Source: Chloroflexota bacterium (GTDB lineage: Bacteria; Chloroflexota; Dehalococcoidia; Bin125). From it: a DNA stretch of 64,000 bases. Under the pieces are notes generated by a model. The model saw nothing but the letters and a program-made list of their open reading frames with translations, had not been told where the DNA came from and ran no database searches. Made by a program: the position numbers and the translations under genes. The stretch covers positions 62,001 to 126,000 of the forward strand of contig JAPOXK010000023.1 in the NCBI GenBank assembly GCA_026707145.1. Reading direction: 5' to 3'. Positions 50,736-64,000 of this stretch are shown piece by piece (the first letter of the stretch is position 1; each line of letters opens with the position of its first letter).

Positions 50736-51674
50736 CTAGGAAATCAGCTCCCGATATTGGAGCCGCTTCCCTACGAGACCGCGGGCAACGGAGCGCATCT
50801 GTTCAGCAGTATCGAGCGAGCGCTGATTGTGCCGTCCGGCGAACTCTGACACGTACCGACTCAGGTGCTTCTCGCTCATCTGGTGGAAGGCTCCGGAGTA
50901 GCCCCGCTTGAGCATGGACCAGAACGACTCGATCCCGTTCGTGTGGGTCTGCTCGATCGCGTACGTCCCGACGCTGTGCTGCACGTACTTGTGCCGGAAC
51001 TCACCGTCCAGCGGGAAGTAGGCTCCGTGCCCATCGGAGTAGACCTGAGCGCCGGGGGCTGCGTGCTTGCGAACGAAGTTCCGCAGTACGGGAGCCTTTG
51101 CCTGCCCAATGACCTCAGCTCGGACTTTCCCTGTGGCGCGATCCTTCGCGCCGACGATAGCGATCCTGTCTGACGTTCCGACCCGGCCAGCGCGGCGCTG
51201 GTACTCGTGCTTGTTCTTCTCTTTGCCACCAATGAACGCCTCATCCACTTCCACGGGGCCGCGTATCGGCTCATCGCCGTGGTCTCCCCATGCTTCCCGA
51301 ATCCGGTGCGCCAGATGCCACGCGGACTTCTGCGTAATGTTGAGATCGCGGTGCAGCTTCAAGCTGGAGACGCCCTTGAGGGACGTGGTGACGAGATAGA
51401 TCGCGATGGCCCAGGTGCGGTAGCCGAGCTTGGAATCGGCCATCGCCGTCCCTGTGCGGACGCTGAAGCGCTTGCGGCAGTCGCGGCAGCGGTAGGGCAT
51501 CGTGGGATGGGATGCGCCCGTCTGCACATTGCCTGAATCGCAGTGCGGGCAGATCGCGCCATCGGGCCAGCGGGAGTCATGGAACCAGCGCTCAGCCGTC
51601 TGGTCGTCAGGGAATATCTCGAACAGCTCCGTAAGGCTGATCCCGTTGCGTGTGCTCTTCCCTGGTCCCGACAT
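50736..51674 (-). mobile_element. IS1595-family transposase
   Basis: CPHCDSGNVQTGASHPTMPYRCRDCRKRFSVRTGTAMADSKLGYRTWAIAIYLVTTSLKGVSSLKLHRDLNITQKSAWHLAHRIREAW; VEVDEAFIGGKEKNKH; IRs at the element ends not recognised. Confidence 0.85.
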
Positions 51675-52137: not shown

Positions 52138-53586
52138 CTACTCCTCCTGTCGCTGCTGCAGGTAGTCCAGGACGCAGCAGATCGCGGTGAGGGCGGGGCC
52201 CTCCGGGCGCTCGGATCGAGAGGCCACCCGGAGTTCCTCCCGAGACGCGGGGCAGCCTGCCTGGGCGATCGTGAACTTCCCGCCAACAAGCGTCTCCCTG
52301 AGCCACCGCCCTGGATCGGGGCCAAGAGTGTGCTGAACGACCGGGATCTCGTGGATCTTCGCATCACGCAGCCGCGACTGCAGTTCCCCGTGGATCTGCC
52401 ATTGCTTGGGATAGGCAAAGGGGCCGTGCAGGAGGGCGTCGACCGGCGCGGCCCGGTGGAATGCGCCGATGCGTGCGGCGGCCTCGTTGGTTGCGCGGAT
52501 GCCGTCCGTGACCGTCTCGGCGAACTGATGGACCTGCCCGTCCTGCCCCACGCCGACCACGACCGCGGTGATCGTGAAAGGGGCGCTATAGACCAGGCCG
52601 ACGTAGCGCTGCGCGGCTTCCGGCCAGGAGAACGGGGGCTGCGCGACGGCCAGGGTCGCATCATCGTAGGCGGGGTAGGAGGCCCGCTCCTGCTCCTCCT
52701 GCAGCTTCGTCAGGCGCTCCAGCGCGTAGCCGAGGGCGGTGAGGGCGGGCCCCGCCCCGCGGTCGCGGCCGGTGGCGGCGTGCCGAAGCTCCTGCCGGGC
52801 GGGGCCAGCGTCGGAGTCCGCGGCGATCGTGAACTGCCCCGCCTCGAGTATCTCCGTGAGACGCTCCCGGAAATCCCCGCTGCGGGGGCCCGGCGCGAAT
52901 GGAAACGGGAGGTCGTGCAGCAGCCGCTCCAGCGTCTCGTGCGTTTGCTGCCGGCGATGGGGTTCGGGATGGTCGGGGCTGTGCAGGAGCGCATCGAGCG
53001 GCCCCCAATCGTGGAGGGCGCGGATGCTCTTGGCGAGGCTGGAGGGGGGTTCGGACGTGCTCGAGTGCCGCGTGGCGAACAGGTGGACGTGCCCGTCCGC
53101 CCCGGCGCCGATCATGACCAGGGTGGTGCCGCCGTCGGCGCGGTAGACCAGGCCCGCCACGCGGAAATCCGCCTCCTGCCAGGAAAAGGGATTCTCGGCC
53201 AGGGCCATGGTCGCGTCGTCGTAGGCGGCGTAGCGAGGGCCGCGCGACGCAGCTGGCGGAAGGGCCGACGTGTCCCGATCCAGCGCCGCATCCCATCCTG
53301 GAACACCGGCTGCCGCCGAGTCCGTCTCGCGGTCCTGCCGCTGCCGGCGTTCGGCCCGCCGCTTCCGCTCTTCCTTGCACCACCTGCGCACCGTGCTCTC
53401 GCCAATCCCGAGCAGGCTGCCAATCTGCGGGTAGCTCAGGGGCGGCGTCATGTCCAGGTCGAAGCGCAGCCGGGTCGCCAGCGGCCTCGTTGCCGGGTCG
53501 CGCGCCGACCGCTGCCGCACCCGCTCGAAGCAGTCGAACAGGTCACCGCCCCATGGAACCCTGGACTCGTGGCCTGGCCGCTCCAT
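52138..53586 (-). CDS. HTH protein with tandemly duplicated ~150-aa domain of unknown function
   Basis: HTH IGSLLGIGESTVRRWCKEE; two copies of YxAYDDAT(M/L)A.A..PFSW.EA..R..GLVY.A......V..GADGHVH(L/Q)FA...LDALLH.P; start placed at ATG 53586. Confidence 0.6.
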   Translation of the reverse strand: MERPGHESRVPWGGDLFDCFERVRQRSARDPATRPLATRLRFDLDMTPPLSYPQIGSLLGIGESTVRRWCKEERKRRAERRQRQDRETDSAAAGVPGWDAALDRDTSALPPAASRGPRYAAYDDATMALAENPFSWQEADFRVAGLVYRADGGTTLVMIGAGADGHVHLFATRHSSTSEPPSSLAKSIRALHDWGPLDALLHSPDHPEPHRRQQTHETLERLLHDLPFPFAPGPRSGDFRERLTEILEAGQFTIAADSDAGPARQELRHAATGRDRGAGPALTALGYALERLTKLQEEQERASYPAYDDATLAVAQPPFSWPEAAQRYVGLVYSAPFTITAVVVGVGQDGQVHQFAETVTDGIRATNEAAARIGAFHRAAPVDALLHGPFAYPKQWQIHGELQSRLRDAKIHEIPVVQHTLGPDPGRWLRETLVGGKFTIAQAGCPASREELRVASRSERPEGPALTAICCVLDYLQQRQEE

Positions 53587-53781
53587 CAGCCGGCTCCGCG
53601 CGGCGCCTGCGTATCGTCGATGCGCCGCCGCCTCAAGCCGCCACCCACCACCGCCCCTGCATAAGGTCCAGGGAGAGAGGGGGGGAAGGGAAACGAATCC
53701 ATAAGGGACAGGGAGCCAGAAAACCCTCCGCTTCGGACTTTCGCATCTCGTCATGCCTCCGCTTCAGTTAGCGCCCCGCTC

Positions 53782-56520: not shown

Positions 56521-56706
56521 ATGACCGACGACACCGACGCGCAGCGCACCACCGACCGGCGGGAGCATCCCCCGATGGGCTTCGACCAACCGCAGGAGCT
56601 CAGCCTCCTGCAGATCCGCACGCGCCCGATCCTCGTCCACGAGAGCGAGCCCCTCGACGACGAAGGCCGGCTCGGCCTGACCATCGACGACATCCCCTGG
56701 GAGTAG
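56521..56706 (+). CDS. Small acidic hypothetical protein with C-terminal LTIDDIPW
   Basis: RBS gaaaggag; MTDDTDAQRTTDRREHPPMGFDQ...EGRLGLTIDDIPWE. Confidence 0.6.
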   Translation: MTDDTDAQRTTDRREHPPMGFDQPQELSLLQIRTRPILVHESEPLDDEGRLGLTIDDIPWE

Positions 56707-56739
56707 GAAGGAGCGCCCCATGACCCTGCCCGACCAGCA

Positions 56740-56914
56740 ACCCCTGACCCCCTGCGCCTGCGGAAGCCACAACGGCCCGCACGCCTGGGATTGCAGCGAG
56801 CCGGCCACCGGCCCCTGCGGCCACTGCCACAACTGCGGCTACTGCGACGGCACGAGCTCCGACCTCTGCCGCATCGCCGTCCGCACCTGGCGAGAGGAGG
56901 AACCGATCAGCTAA
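56740..56914 (+). CDS. Small Cys-rich (zinc-binding-like) protein; start may be 56720
   Basis: PCACGSHNGPHAWDCSEPATGPCGHCHNCGYCDGTSSDLC. Confidence 0.5.
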
Positions 56915-56976: not shown

Positions 56977-57345
56977 ATGCCCGCCAGCCTCAACAAGGTC
57001 CTGATCATCGGCAATCTCGGCGCCGACCCGGAGATGAGCTACACCGCCAACGGCACCGCCCGCACGCGGCTCAGCGTCGCCGTCAACCGCAGCTACACCA
57101 CCGGTGAGGGCGAGCGCCGCGAGGAGACCGAGTGGTTCCACGTGGTCGCCTGGAACAAGCTGGGCGAGACCGTCGCCCAGTACCTCAGCAAGGGCCGCCG
57201 CGTCTACATCGAGGGCCGGCTGCAAACCCGCCAGTACGACGACAAGGACGGCCAGCGGTGGTACTTCACGGAAGTGATCGCCCGCGACGTCCAGTTCCTC
57301 GACAACGGCCAGCAGGCCGCGCCCGCCGGAGAGGAAGCCGCCTGA
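56977..57345 (+). CDS. ssb: Single-stranded DNA-binding protein
   Basis: MPASLNKVLIIGNLGADPEMSYTANGTARTRLSVAVNRSY...EETEWFHVVAWNKLGETVAQYLSKGRRVYIEGRLQTRQYDDKDGQRWYFTEVIARDVQFL; RBS gaaggag. Confidence 0.95.
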   Translation: MPASLNKVLIIGNLGADPEMSYTANGTARTRLSVAVNRSYTTGEGERREETEWFHVVAWNKLGETVAQYLSKGRRVYIEGRLQTRQYDDKDGQRWYFTEVIARDVQFLDNGQQAAPAGEEAA

Positions 57346-57440: not shown

Positions 57441-60200
57441 ATGCCTACGCAGACTACCCACTCCCAGCGCCCGCGCCAACCCGGCGCCCGCACCCACCAG
57501 ATCCTCGTCATCGGCGACGACGGCACCTACCGCCGCATCGACGCCCCGGACCAGCCCCTCACTCTCGAGGTGATGCAGGGCCTCGTCGACGGGCTCATCG
57601 AGCGCGTCAGCACCGCCGGCTTCGACGTCTGGCTCAACGAGGCAGGGCTCTTGCGCGAGAGCTTCGGGCTCAACATCGCCGCCAGCTGGCTGCTCCACGA
57701 GCACGGCGCCTCCGGCCACGAGATCTACGGGCCGGCCTTCCTCGCCCGCGTCGAGGGGGAGGAGAGCCACCCGCTACCGGTCGCCCAGGTCCAGCAGCTG
57801 GTCGACGTCATCGAGACGCTCGGCTGGGAGAACCAGCACGAGGTCATCCCGATCGCGGGCGGGAGCGGGGAGGAGGTCGAGGAGCCTCCTTCCCGCTTCT
57901 TCCAGTGCTGGCCCATGGCCGCCTACTTCGCCGACCTGGCCGAGGAGAGCTGGGACCAGACGAACGGGAACTACAACGTCGACGAGGACCTCTTCGAGGC
58001 CTGCTGCGTCGGCGCCCACCTGGCCTACTTCCTCGGCACCAAGCTGCACGACCGCGGCGCGCGCAGCGAGCACCACGACTTCATCGACGGCATCCGCGCC
58101 TTCGCCGACAAGCTCGGCATCGAGCACTGGCAACTGAACCACGTGCTCTACGCCGGCGGCGCCCAGTCCGATCCGTTCGGCAGCAAGCAATGGCACGTCC
58201 CGCCGGCCGTCGTCTTCGCCAACCTCCTCTCCATCGAGAAGGTCCCCGACTTCGAGACGGCCGAGGCCATGCACCTGGACGCGCTCGTCGCCTACGCGAA
58301 GACCCTCCTGCAGTACGACGGCGAGATCTTCGTCGACCCCGAGTACCCGACGGAGCTCTCCATGTTCCGCTGCCGAGGCCCCTGGACCGGCGTCTGCGAG
58401 GTCTGCGAGGACCAGCGACTCGCCAGCACCGACGTCGCCTTCTACGACAGCCGCGAGTGGCTCGATCACCTGGTCAACGACCCCGTTCCCATGCGCACGC
58501 CGATTGCCGGTGGCAGCATCGAGGCCAGCTGCATCGGCCGCGCCCGCTGCATCGTGCAGAAGGACCACGAGCACTGCTGGGCCCACGAGCCCGCCTGCCA
58601 CGCCGCCTTCTGCCACTGCCAGGACAGCACCCCGACGACCGAGCAGGCCTACGCGGAGCAGCTGCGCGAGGAGACGCGGCCACCCGCCCGGCCCATCGCC
58701 GGCGGGAGCGACGTTGGCACCACCACCGCGGTCGACGTCCGCTGCGACCAGTGCACCAGCACCTGGCAGATCGAGGCCGGCGACGCCCTCACCTGCCCCA
58801 TCTGCGGGACCGCCGAGCACAGCGTCATGCGCCTCGGCCCCCTGGCCAGCGAGGCGCTGCGCATCGCCGGCGAAGAGGCCCGGCTGCTGTTCTACAAGCG
58901 GACGGTCGGCGGGCCGCCGATCGAGGGAGGGAGCGGCGCGGAGGAGCCGCTCCCCCTCGTCTTTCCCACCGACAGCAGCGACGAGACGCCGACCAAGCAC
59001 CAGTTCAGCGTCGAGACCGTCGAGCGCATCGACGCCGAGCGCCGCTGGTTCGTCATCGCCTCCAGCGAGGCCGAGATCCGCGCCGAGGAGGGCGACGCGG
59101 AGTGGGAGGAAGTCGTGAAAGAGCACGGCGAGGACCTGATCGAGCAGACCATCCTCGAGATCACCCACTTCGACGATTGCGAGGCCTGCGAGGAGCTCCC
59201 ACTCATCGCCGGCGGCGCCACCGCCGCGCCCAAGCTCCTCTGGGAGACCCACGGCCGCGGCGGGCTGCGCGAGTACACGAGCGGCAACTACGCCATCTTC
59301 CACCCCTACCCCGAGGAGCTGGAGAAGCACGGCCGCGGCCCTCTGCGCCTCTCCCGCCGGTGGCGCGTCGTCTTCGAGGACCGGCACTACACCAAGGAGC
59401 ACGGCTGGGTCGGGCCCAGCACCAAGCTCGGCACCTTCGACACGCTCAGCGAGGCGAAGGCCTGCGCCCAGCGCCACGCCGACGAGCGGGCCACCGGCCA
59501 GATGGAGCTCAAGCCCATCGCCGGGGGCAGCGGCGAGGAACCACCCCCGCGGCTCACCACGCGGGAGCGGAAGGAGCGCCGCCTCTACCGCCGCGAGGAC
59601 TGGGCCGACAGCCGTCGGCGCAAGCTCGATAGCGCCCGCCAGGAGTACGACCAGCGCCTGCAGGAGCTGCCGCCCATGGGCGAGCCCATCCACGTCGGCC
59701 ATCACTCCGAGCGCCGGCACCGCAACGCTATCAAGCGCCTCGACCGCGCCTTCGACAAGATCGGCGAGCACTCGCAGATGCTGGAGCGCCACGAGAGCAA
59801 GGCCGCCGGCATCCGGCACCAGCTGGACGTCTCCATCTACGACGATGACGACGACGCCATCGAGCAGCTGCAGCTCCGCATCGCCGAGCTCGAAGCCCAG
59901 CGCGACCGCATGAAGGCCATCAACGCCTGGTTCGCCAAGCACGGCGGCATCCCCAAGCGCCGGGTGCCGCGGGGATCGAGCCGCGAGCTCTTCGAGCGGG
60001 CCGCCGACGCTATCAAGCGGGCCCACGCCGAGCTGCACTTCACCGACAAGGAAGGCCAGGACCTGGTCCGCGCCCTCGAGTTCAACGACGTGGTCGGCTA
60101 CCCGCCTTACGCCCTCTCCAATCTCGGCGGCAACATCCGCCGCCAGGTCAAGCGGCTGGAGCGCCTGCGGAAGGAGGCTGGCGATGCCTCGAAGCCTTAG
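57441..60200 (+). CDS. 919-aa multi-segment protein with six PIAGGS-type linkers (putative polyprotein; N-terminal DUF3846-like, internal zinc ribbon, C-terminal DUF3560-like)
   Basis: RBS aaggag; PIAGGS at aa 137, 354, 418, PIEGGS 493, LIAGGA 588, PIAGGS 692; CDQCTSTWQIEAGDALTCPICG; C-terminal GEPIHVGHHSERRHRNAIKRLDRAFDKI. Confidence 0.8.
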   Translation: MPTQTTHSQRPRQPGARTHQILVIGDDGTYRRIDAPDQPLTLEVMQGLVDGLIERVSTAGFDVWLNEAGLLRESFGLNIAASWLLHEHGASGHEIYGPAFLARVEGEESHPLPVAQVQQLVDVIETLGWENQHEVIPIAGGSGEEVEEPPSRFFQCWPMAAYFADLAEESWDQTNGNYNVDEDLFEACCVGAHLAYFLGTKLHDRGARSEHHDFIDGIRAFADKLGIEHWQLNHVLYAGGAQSDPFGSKQWHVPPAVVFANLLSIEKVPDFETAEAMHLDALVAYAKTLLQYDGEIFVDPEYPTELSMFRCRGPWTGVCEVCEDQRLASTDVAFYDSREWLDHLVNDPVPMRTPIAGGSIEASCIGRARCIVQKDHEHCWAHEPACHAAFCHCQDSTPTTEQAYAEQLREETRPPARPIAGGSDVGTTTAVDVRCDQCTSTWQIEAGDALTCPICGTAEHSVMRLGPLASEALRIAGEEARLLFYKRTVGGPPIEGGSGAEEPLPLVFPTDSSDETPTKHQFSVETVERIDAERRWFVIASSEAEIRAEEGDAEWEEVVKEHGEDLIEQTILEITHFDDCEACEELPLIAGGATAAPKLLWETHGRGGLREYTSGNYAIFHPYPEELEKHGRGPLRLSRRWRVVFEDRHYTKEHGWVGPSTKLGTFDTLSEAKACAQRHADERATGQMELKPIAGGSGEEPPPRLTTRERKERRLYRREDWADSRRRKLDSARQEYDQRLQELPPMGEPIHVGHHSERRHRNAIKRLDRAFDKIGEHSQMLERHESKAAGIRHQLDVSIYDDDDDAIEQLQLRIAELEAQRDRMKAINAWFAKHGGIPKRRVPRGSSRELFERAADAIKRAHAELHFTDKEGQDLVRALEFNDVVGYPPYALSNLGGNIRRQVKRLERLRKEAGDASKP

Positions 60201-60414
60201 CGATCAGCAGCACAGCCGCGTCCGCGCCCGCCTCAAGATGACCGAGCGAGCGCTCGCTGCCCACAAGCTCTTCGCTGCGGCCACCTTGCTGCGCGAGGTC
60301 CTCGGCGACGTGGAGCAGCCCGAGGGCCCATGCCCGGTCTGCACCGGCGACCGCTGCGACCTGGTCCTCTGCCGCGCCCGGCTCGCCCAGCACGAGCGCG
60401 CCCCCACCATCTAG
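60184..60414 (+). CDS. Small hypothetical protein, overlaps the 3' end of the 919-aa ORF
   Basis: MPRSLSDQQHSRVRARLKMTERALAAHKLFAAATLLREVLGDVEQPEGPCPVCTGDRCDLVLCRARLAQHE. Confidence 0.6.
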   Translation: MPRSLSDQQHSRVRARLKMTERALAAHKLFAAATLLREVLGDVEQPEGPCPVCTGDRCDLVLCRARLAQHERAPTI

Positions 60415-60427
60415 AAAGGAGCGTCCT

Positions 60428-60658
60428 ATGCCTGACTCCAACGTCCTGCGCCCCTGCCCCGGCACGCACGAGCACGACTGCGGCGCCGAGCTCGCCGGGA
60501 CCCCCAAGCACCGCAAGCGCTGCCTCGAATGCAGCAACGACTACGCCAACGAACGGCGCCGCGCGCGCCGCGCCGGCATCCCCTTCGACATCCCAAAGGA
60601 GCAGCTCGAGCTGCCCATCACCGTCGGCGAGCAAGGAGAGCAAGCGAGGTTCTCATGA
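60428..60658 (+). CDS. Small Cys/His hypothetical protein
   Basis: RBS gaaaggag; MPDSNVLRPCPGTHEHDCGAELAGTPKHRKRCLECSNDYANERRRARR. Confidence 0.6.
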   Translation: MPDSNVLRPCPGTHEHDCGAELAGTPKHRKRCLECSNDYANERRRARRAGIPFDIPKEQLELPITVGEQGEQARFS

Positions 60659-60888: not shown

Positions 60889-63800
60889 CTACTCCGCCAA
60901 GCCGTCCGAGCAGACGATGCGGATCAGTTCCGGCTCCGACGGCCGCGCCGCAACGGAAGCGTCGGGAACGTTGAGGCGGTAGCGCTCGCGCAGGGCTTCA
61001 AGGCGGATCCGCAGCACTCGCCCCTCAAGCCGCAGGTGTCGGATCTCGTCTAGGGCATTCTCCGCAGCCGTAGGCAATTCGCCAATGAAGATCCGGCGAA
61101 GCGTCTCGATCCGCCGCGTCTCTTCCGAATCGTCGGCTGTGGCCCGGCTGGCAAGGGCCAGTTGCCGGGACACATAGCGCCGCGATCGCGTGTTGCGCGG
61201 CCGGCGGGTCCTGCCCAGTCGCTGCCCGAACTCCGTCTTGAAGGCCTCGGCGGCCGCCATGACCCGCTCGTTCGTGTCGTCGGGCAGCGCCTCGCCCGGC
61301 GTCTCTGGGCTGCACTGGGCCGCCGCTACGAACTGGACAGGGCTGATGGAGCGGGGTGCACGACCCGACCCCACGGCGTAGCAGCCGTGAATCTCCCCGG
61401 CGCCGAGGAGCACCAGCGTCTCGCCGGGCCGGGGATCATCGAAGGCCGCCGGAGGAGCGGCGGCTAGGTTGGCCGGTGAGAGAAGCGGTGCCTGCACTCC
61501 ATCAATGGGAAGCACGTTCTGCGCGTAGCTGTCGTTGTCAGCATCCTCCCGCGGTTGCTGCACCGGTTGCACCAGGAGTGCCGACCGGATGCCGTCCGGC
61601 AGGGAGCTGATAGTCCCCCACAGTGCCGGGTCGTCCTCCCGGATGCGCTGCAGCAGGGCCACCGCCCGCTGGTGCGCCGCCACCTCGTCGAGGCCATCGT
61701 CGCTCTCCGGCAGCCGCCGCTTATCGTAAATGCGATACATGGCACCAGCGTTGAGGCGCTCGGATTCCGACAGGAGCTTGTTGTCGAGGCCGATTAGATC
61801 ATGGAACGCCTGGATGCGCCGGTGTAGCCGCCCCGTCAGCTCGAGGCCGGCGTCGACCTCCAAGTCGGGCCACATGTTGTGCAGGTCGATCACGGCGTGC
61901 TCGGTGCCGATGCGGTCGACGCGGCCGAACCGCTGGATGAGGTGCACGGGGTTCCAGTGCAGGTCGTAGTTCAAGACGCGTGCGCAGTCCTGCAGATTCT
62001 GGCCCTCCGACACAAGGTCCGTGGCCAGCAGGAGGCGGATTTCCGGTCCCGGAAGCTCGCGCCCCGCAGGCGGGTTGGAACGCGGCGAGAACCGGGTGAC
62101 GAGCCCCTCCACTTCACCGCGATTGCTTCCGCTCAAACGCGCGATCGCTGGATCGCGGCCACCGGGATTCAGTTGCTCGTACAGGTAATCGACGGTCGTC
62201 TCGGCCTCGGAGAAGATGAGCACCTTGCCCGCCCGCACGTCGGGCCGATCGAGGAATGCCCGGAGAGCCCGCAGCTTATCGTCGTCCTCGGGCGCGATCG
62301 CCCGCACCCGTGCCGCGAGCCCGGCCAAGACGGCGTGATCCGCGTCGAGATCGGTGATCAAGCGCTCCGTATCGAAGTGGGCAACTGGATGCGCGGTACG
62401 GGAATCATCCCCGCGTGCCTGTTCTTCCTGTTGCAGAATCTCCAGCAGTTCGTCGGCATCGAACCGCTCTCCGGCGAGCACACGGCTTGCCGTCGCACCG
62501 ACGGGGACGTAGCCGGCTTCAAGGCCCTCGCGAAAGTGGCGATTGCTTCGGCTCAAGGCTTCAAGGGTGGAGAGGAAGGCGGCAGCGCTCGACTCGAAGC
62601 GCTTCAGCAGCAGCATCTTCATCAGGCCGGCGAGCTGCGTCCTGGTCCGCAGCAGCCCGCGGTACTCCGGCCGCGGCTTGAATTCCTCGTGCAGGTAGTC
62701 GGAGGCTCGATAGCGCGTGGCTTTGTGCGCCTTCAGCGCGTCCGTGATTTCCTTGAAGGTTCCCGCCCGGGCATAGACGCGGTCGAGCCGGTAGTCGACG
62801 TTCTCCAGGACCGGGGTCGGGAACTGCACCGGCCGGCCCCCGACGATCGCGCTATCGCCATAGAGGTCACGAATGTCGCGCCGGCGCCGCCGAATGAATA
62901 GAGGAGACAGCACCTGCGTGATGTCGGCGCGGGGCACGGTCGGTTCTGCGGGTGGCAGTGGCGGCGTGGGTGTGGAGCGCTCTCGGCTCCAGTCCACGTA
63001 CTCAGCCTCATAGTTCGCTTTCGCCATCCGGTGGTCGAGCCACCGCTGCGCGTTGCGAAAGTACTCCCGCAGGTCGAGCGGCTCGATGGCCAGGCCGTGA
63101 TCGGTGTCATCCAAGAACAGCCTGAGCTGGCGGTAAATGTCCAGCGGGCCGAGGTTCTGGGGCGTGGCGCTGAGCAGCACCACCTTGTGGTCGCCGGCCT
63201 CAAGGTACTCCTGCAGGCCCGCGTAGCGCTGGTTGCGATTGCGGAAGTTATGGGCTTCGTCGACCAGCACCGGCCCCCGGTCCGGGTATTCCCGACTGAG
63301 AACGATGCCGCGCTCGGGCGGCGCGGCGTCAACGTAGCGGCCAAGCTCCTCGTCGAACTCGGCCTCTCCGGACGGGACGATCATGCTGTGCGAGATCACC
63401 GAAGCGCCGAGTTGGAAACGTTCGTTGAACGACTCCCACATCGGCTTCAATCCGGCGGGACAGAGGATGAGCGGGCGGCCGTCGTGCGGGTAACTGAACT
63501 GGAGCTGGCGAAGCAACTCGGCGCCGATGAAGGTCTTGCCCAACCCTACGACGTCGCCGATGTAGCAGCCGCCGTGGATGTCGATCATTGCCAGGCCGCG
63601 GCGCACGGCGTCCAGCTGAAAGTTGGCCAACTCCTCATCCCGCGGCGGTAGCGGCAGTTCAGTCGCCCCGGCGCCCCCGTGGTAGAGCTCGTAGAGGGCC
63701 TTGAGGTACACGTGGTAGGGCGGCGTCTTCGCCAGCGCCCAGGAGCGGTCGAGTTCCAACTGCAGCGCCTCGCTGACGTCCTCCGCATCCTCCCAGAGGG

Positions 63801-64000
63801 CGTCGAACCATTCGCGCAGGGTGGCCATCTCCGCATCGCCGGTGACGCGCACGTTGAGCTCGGTGTTGCCGCTGAACCCGGCCAGCGTGAGGTTCGAGGA
63901 GCCGACGACCGCCGCGCCGGGCTCGGCGTGGTCGTGGTACCAGCAAAGGTAGGCCTTGGCGTGCAGCGGGCTGCGCCGGTAGGCCCGGATTTCCGCCTGG
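60889..64000 (-). CDS. PLD-like nuclease domain + SNF2/DEAD-type helicase (N-terminus beyond window edge)
   Basis: Open to edge: SPLHAKAYLCWYHDH...VGSSNLTLAGFSGNTELNV (HxK/N PLD-type motif); GDVVGLGKTFIGAELL; VDEAHNFRN; LLATDLVSEGQNLQDCARVLNYDLHWNPVHLIQRFGRVDRIG. Confidence 0.85.
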   Translation of the reverse strand, partial: QAEIRAYRRSPLHAKAYLCWYHDHAEPGAAVVGSSNLTLAGFSGNTELNVRVTGDAEMATLREWFDALWEDAEDVSEALQLELDRSWALAKTPPYHVYLKALYELYHGGAGATELPLPPRDEELANFQLDAVRRGLAMIDIHGGCYIGDVVGLGKTFIGAELLRQLQFSYPHDGRPLILCPAGLKPMWESFNERFQLGASVISHSMIVPSGEAEFDEELGRYVDAAPPERGIVLSREYPDRGPVLVDEAHNFRNRNQRYAGLQEYLEAGDHKVVLLSATPQNLGPLDIYRQLRLFLDDTDHGLAIEPLDLREYFRNAQRWLDHRMAKANYEAEYVDWSRERSTPTPPLPPAEPTVPRADITQVLSPLFIRRRRRDIRDLYGDSAIVGGRPVQFPTPVLENVDYRLDRVYARAGTFKEITDALKAHKATRYRASDYLHEEFKPRPEYRGLLRTRTQLAGLMKMLLLKRFESSAAAFLSTLEALSRSNRHFREGLEAGYVPVGATASRVLAGERFDADELLEILQQEEQARGDDSRTAHPVAHFDTERLITDLDADHAVLAGLAARVRAIAPEDDDKLRALRAFLDRPDVRAGKVLIFSEAETTVDYLYEQLNPGGRDPAIARLSGSNRGEVEGLVTRFSPRSNPPAGRELPGPEIRLLLATDLVSEGQNLQDCARVLNYDLHWNPVHLIQRFGRVDRIGTEHAVIDLHNMWPDLEVDAGLELTGRLHRRIQAFHDLIGLDNKLLSESERLNAGAMYRIYDKRRLPESDDGLDEVAAHQRAVALLQRIREDDPALWGTISSLPDGIRSALLVQPVQQPREDADNDSYAQNVLPIDGVQAPLLSPANLAAAPPAAFDDPRPGETLVLLGAGEIHGCYAVGSGRAPRSISPVQFVAAAQCSPETPGEALPDDTNERVMAAAEAFKTEFGQRLGRTRRPRNTRSRRYVSRQLALASRATADDSEETRRIETLRRIFIGELPTAAENALDEIRHLRLEGRVLRIRLEALRERYRLNVPDASVAARPSEPELIRIVCSDGLAE

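Follow-up and report, generated by a model that had tools for sequence, protein, structure and literature searches.

We found that a 919-aa open reading frame of this Chloroflexota genome (P0001; 57441-60200, plus strand) is an unusual fusion of small mobile-element proteins, in which a short junction motif recurs six times as a repeat at the amino-acid level. Positions refer to the window, which is the whole 64-kb stretch of DNA analysed here (C13:62001-126000 of a 2.42-Mb genome in 28 contigs; the assembly is 92.6% complete).

The composite ORF is a single gene with six repeated junctions

The translation of the composite ORF contained no stop codon, and an AAGGAG ribosome-binding site was located at about 57428, upstream of its start. 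All seven segments obtained by cutting after the GG of the junction motif (141, 217, 64, 75, 95, 104 and 223 aa) had a third-position GC of 0.93-0.99. This uniformly high value, together with the clear ribosome-binding site, indicated that the composite ORF is one real gene, and the values for the single segments ruled out a non-coding stretch or a frameshift artefact as its source. The 754-aa antisense ORF on the opposite strand (57774-60038, minus) is a by-product of the GC bias, present because the composite gene has a high third-position GC, and not a real gene. A sequence-only reading of this DNA had described a 919-aa ORF with six motifs, and the ORF, the motif positions and all seven segment lengths were reproduced exactly.

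The motif appeared as PIAGGS at 57849-57866 (residue 137, HEVIPIAGGSGEEVEEPP), 58500-58517 (residue 354) and 58692-58709 (residue 418), as PIEGGS at 58917-58934 (residue 493), as LIAGGA in the context EELPLIAGGA at 59202-59219 (residue 588), and again as PIAGGS at 59514-59531 (residue 692, MELKPIAGGSGEEPPP), all on the plus strand. From the composition of the protein, 0.0011 occurrences of [PL]I[AE]GG[SA] were expected per composite ORF against the six observed, and in 20,000 shuffles of the composite protein P[ILV][AE]GG[SA] occurred at most once per shuffle, which together ruled out a chance origin of the six motifs. No other ORF of the 64-kb window carried clustered junction motifs; across the whole genome the corresponding DNA pattern matched 24 times, five times inside the composite gene and otherwise as scattered singles.

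We then compared the copies at the DNA level. The four exact PIAGGS copies had a codon identity of 0.47, compared with 0.63 expected under independent codon choice, and the DNA flanking these copies was identical to about the level of chance in all pairs. The codon differences and the chance-level flanks ruled out duplication of a linker at the DNA level; having fewer common codons than expected and unlike flanks, the motif repeat must have been kept, or gained, as amino acids, as the sequence-only reading had proposed. The motif was often followed by a stretch that is disordered, acidic or rich in proline, and the six motif positions ranked high in disorder propensity within the protein, with as high a score in 0.015% of random six-position draws.

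The end segments match families that occur as separate proteins

Both ends of the composite protein belong to known families. The core of segment 1 (residues 21-122 of 1-141; 57501-57806, plus strand) matched DUF3846 (PF12957) at 7.8e-11, with 42.5 bits against a curated cut-off of 27.5 and coverage of profile positions 3-100 of 103. The core of segment 7 (residues 708-829 of 697-919; 59562-59927, plus strand) matched DUF3560 (PF12083) at 1.6e-20, with 73.9 bits against a curated cut-off of 27.2 and coverage of positions 3-121 of 124. The two end segments had been called DUF3846-like and DUF3560-like from the letters alone, and both assignments were confirmed over the Pfam cut-offs. Judged by title and abstract, none of the few papers that name DUF3560 or DUF3846 is a functional study of either family.

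Elsewhere these domains stood by themselves. A sample of 400 genomes from the window's phylum gave DUF3846 matches in five other genomes; the four over the cut-off lay in free open frames of 120-168 aa, and one weak match below it in an open frame of 261 aa. Segment 1 shares the PF12957 match over residues 21-122 with phage and mobile-element DUF3846 proteins, whereas in the phylum sample DUF3846 is a separate gene. DUF3560 was present in two other genomes of the same sample, in open frames of 207 and 218 aa, and across a second sample of the phylum open frames were 117-350 aa long. Three plasmid DUF3560 proteins were examined (265-269 aa; examples are WP_338925049.1 on Pseudomonas silesiensis pPL2 and AGH89056.1 on pMBUI4). 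In tblastn alignments segment 7 matched such proteins over nearly its whole length at 33-37% identity, with a common PIxVGHHSERRHR core, but the plasmid proteins are encoded by separate genes with an extra C-terminal domain, and none of the three was fused or carried the motif. Two of these three genes sit amid many small hypothetical genes.

The limits of the free proteins could be placed on the composite protein. Free DUF3560 proteins aligned from about residue 704-709, so that their start lies 9-14 residues beyond motif 6. The free DUF3846 proteins ended, in weak alignments, at about residue 125, some 12 residues before motif 1. The start after motif 6 and the end before motif 1 indicate that the outer junctions delimit independent proteins. 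Hence the idea that the motifs fall between domains held at both outer junctions, while the inner segments 2-5 had no relatives by which to place boundaries. Likewise, the proposed fusion of normally separate proteins stood for segments 1 and 7, but no relatives were found for segments 2, 3, 5 and 6.

The inner segments have no detectable relatives

No meaningful match in Pfam or PHROGs was obtained for segment 2 (57864-58514, 217 aa), the Cys/His-rich segment 3 (58515-58706, 64 aa), the acidic segment 5 (58932-59216, 95 aa) or segment 6 (59217-59528, 104 aa), all on the plus strand. Segment 4 (58707-58931) does contain a CxxC..CxxC stretch (58725-58826, plus strand) of the kind that had been called a zinc ribbon, but its HypA-like match of 3e-4 was below the Pfam and all other cut-offs. 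The single-sequence AlphaFold model of the full-length protein had a mean pLDDT of 35, that is, no confidence. In the single-sequence model of segment 6, which showed a low-confidence alpha/beta core, pLDDT rose to about 75 near a C-terminal strand and helix and was 30-45 at the motifs, so that both flanking motifs were placed, with low confidence, outside the predicted core. Together with the disorder-prone positions of the motifs, this placement bears indirectly on the inner junctions. A fold search with this model gave no significant match, and many of the low-ranking ones were small phage proteins.

We searched the GTDB genomes (one genome per species, 85,000 species), IMG/VR, PLSDB and INPHARED by tblastn and pattern scans, and the matches were to the DUF3560 part only. 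In these species genomes, viral contigs, plasmids and phages we found no related fusion with conserved junctions and no relatives of segments 2, 3, 5 and 6, the single-sequence searches being of modest sensitivity, at which distant relatives of segments 2-6 may be missed. The same collections yielded no second multi-motif protein. No relatives of the composite gene were found in 19 other genomes of the same family. PIAGGxGE[ED] matched 22 times in the 85,000 genomes, nearly always off-frame or singly, and the IMG/VR matches of PIAGG[ST]G were background apart from one scaffold-like protein. The ORFs examined near DUF3560 and DUF3846 genes in other genomes contained no repeated motifs and no convincing relatives of segments 2-6. 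Apparent relatives of segment 6 in two genomes proved to be out-of-frame matches within unrelated genes, and a literature text search for the letters PIAGG matched unrelated words alone.

A PIAGG core closes a motif of phage head proteins

Five of the six PIAGGxGE[ED] matches in viral contigs lay in scaffold-like proteins. The longer pattern GRPI[YF]PIAGG was found in 45 IMG/VR contigs (L040-L084); in each of them one ORF contained LGYRxDGRPI(Y/F)PIAGG[ASD] or a close variant, mostly near its N-terminus. Among 28 distinct phage sequences the G-R-P-I and P-I-A-G-G positions were invariant, largely because the search pattern required these residues; the upstream LG, R and D were conserved as well, without having been selected for. 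When ten carriers were compared with PHROGs, nine were assigned to head proteins, of which six were scaffold proteins and three major head proteins. Among Streptomyces phages (L085, L108-L110), identical or looser forms occurred in the major capsid proteins of Yara and Rooney, the scaffold protein of Nesbitt and gp6 of SV1. Judged by sequence, LGYRxDGRPI(Y/F)PIAGG is a conserved N-terminal motif common to non-homologous scaffold and HK97-type major head proteins, for which our literature search found no paper; its candidate roles are prohead protease, portal or shell docking.

The phage motif and the composite junctions share the PIAGG[S/A] core, and the acidic SGE[ED] tail seen in some phages has a counterpart in the SGEE that follows two of the composite copies. 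In contrast, the phage proteins carry a single copy near the N-terminus and the composite protein six internal copies, and the upstream half, LGYRxDGRPI, is missing at all six junctions, which places them outside the phage motif. Since most matches of PIAGG[ST]G by itself in viral contigs are background, we treat the link between the phage and composite proteins as unproven.

No dedicated protease was found with the composite gene

The recognition sequence of C39 peptidases has Leu-12, Glu-8 and Leu-7 before GG (PMC6363468). The composite junctions resemble the double-glycine sites of this family (PCAT/AMS) in having I at -4, GG at -2/-1 and S/A thereafter, but they are six internal sites of a 919-aa protein and lack Leu-12. 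Glu-8 with Leu or Val at -7 was present at three of the six junctions, which read E-[LV]-x-x-I-x-G-G, a likeness that was noticed after the fact and has a post hoc chance of about 1e-4; with Leu-12 at none of the six, the junctions depart from the C39 consensus. No C39 peptidase was detected in the 92.6% complete assembly, and its absence, together with that of Leu-12, led us to reject the reading of the composite protein as a C39 substrate.

Two JAB matches were found in the genome, on contigs C4 and C24, away from the composite gene, and no ubiquitin-like family was detected in any composite segment, so the pairing of a ubiquitin-like protein with a JAB peptidase does not apply. No peptidase family was detected within the composite ORF, and no peptidase gene was found in its operon, although a protease of an unrecognised kind may act on it. 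The sole peptidase-like gene nearby encodes an SDH/ClpP-like protein (1.2e-5, sub-threshold), about 9 kb downstream on the opposite strand and amid defence genes. The sequence-only reading had compared the junctions with processing sites; neither cleavage at GG nor the co-occurrence of a dedicated protease was borne out.

The composite gene lies in a genomic island

The gene for a single-strand DNA-binding protein (SSB; 56977-57345, PF00436, 5.4e-37) lies directly 5' of the composite gene in the same operon-like run. It is preceded by two small accessory ORFs, of 61 aa (56521-56706) and, Cys-rich, of 64 aa (56720-56914). Two further ones of 76 aa each lie downstream, one of which starts before the composite gene ends (60184-60414) and the other Cys/His-rich (60428-60658); all five are on the plus strand. 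Further downstream are an HKD+Snf2 helicase, a type IIG restriction enzyme, the SDH/ClpP-like protein and an AAA/DUF4143 ATPase, followed by VapE and a tyrosine integrase. The helicase, the type IIG restriction-methyltransferase, a small coiled-coil-like protein and, on the other strand, the SDH/ClpP-like protein form a defence-like cluster (window 60889-64000 and L032:418-6468).

The VapE-domain protein adjoins the P4-type tyrosine integrase outside the window (C13:147054-149959; L033:1054-3959). This integrase has the arm domain PF13356 and adjoins an AP-endonuclease-family gene (PF01261), which is taken to be chromosomal. A comparison of the integrase end with the left part of the island revealed no direct repeats of at least 16 bp. 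Upstream of the composite gene lie an IS1595-family transposase (50736-51674, minus) and a 538-aa ORF (52138-53754, minus) with a weak N-terminal helix-turn-helix and no family over the cut-off; the latter consists of two internally similar halves, with YDDAT.A.A..PFSW.EA occurring twice. Taken together, the composite gene lies in a genomic island, one end of which is satellite-like; within this island, the gene may be part of an older element.

Discussion

In bacterial elements, small accessory proteins are usually encoded by individual genes. Segments 2-6 are probably normally separate small proteins like segments 1 and 7. We favour, at not quite an even chance, the reading of the composite gene as a fused, bead-on-string accessory protein of the integrative island that stays uncut. 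The fusion would probably act as a single scaffold, by which small, partly Cys/His-rich domains are kept close together and in a fixed ratio, with the PIxGG[S/A] junctions serving as hinges; from its adjacency to the SSB gene, we infer that it may act with this neighbour in the entry or replication of the element. A permanent scaffold is the commoner outcome of gene fusion, and we rank it first because of this and because it needs no extra enzyme. A plain hinge, however, needs no identical P-I-x-G-G, so the scaffold leaves the precision of the motif unexplained; this precision at six junctions suggests that a partner or a protease recognises the motif.

Cleavage would account for the recurrence of the same residues from junction to junction. 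An element or host protease would then cut PIxGG|[S/A] and release seven equimolar small proteins, which we consider rather unlikely, and we are similarly sceptical of the form in which a mobile-element polyprotein yields seven unrelated accessory proteins as equal early-entry factors. The protein does have six near-identical, cleavage-like sites with unrelated domains between them and no duplication at the DNA level, and the outer sites, at the two ends where boundaries could be placed, border the free-standing DUF3846 and DUF3560 proteins. Three of the six sites recall C39 double-glycine sites, but no C39 peptidase was detected in the genome, Leu-12 occurs at no site, and the composite protein is without a leader or exporter context. 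Candidate enzymes could be sought in the JAB-family proteins and the SDH/ClpP-like protein about 9 kb away; the former are encoded on other contigs, however, and the latter outside the operon among defence genes. No collection searched held a second multi-motif protein, which also speaks against a processed polyprotein.

Recognition by a partner would instead make the ORF a multivalent scaffold, each PIxGG[S/A] binding the same protein as a docking peptide and the phage motif representing a related use. Such a role fits both the PIAGG core that closes LGYRxDGRPI(Y/F)PIAGG[AS], a motif shared by phage scaffold proteins and major head proteins that are not homologous, and the acidic stretch that often follows the phage motif and also follows composite copies 1 and 6. 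This proposal is doubtful, because the composite protein lacks the LGYRxDG part that is strongly conserved in phages, the phage proteins have one copy each near the N-terminus, and PIAGG[ST]G is mostly a chance match in viral contigs, so that the overlap may be a coincidence. Finally, serial gene fusions may have left behind linkers that resemble one another and are now without a specific role. That no relative of the composite gene was found in 85,000 species and 19 family genomes is in line with such a historical accident, as the fusion may be young or transient. Yet linkers from one source should have common codons or flanks, and neither was observed, while six independent chance gains of one 6-mer are implausible with 0.001 expected; we regard an accident as very unlikely.

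If the uncut scaffold or the virus-style polyprotein is true, an apparent seven-in-one gene with a repeated junction would be a different way of controlling the stoichiometry of accessory proteins. The junction motif also offers a search handle for the DUF3560 and DUF3846 accessory proteins.
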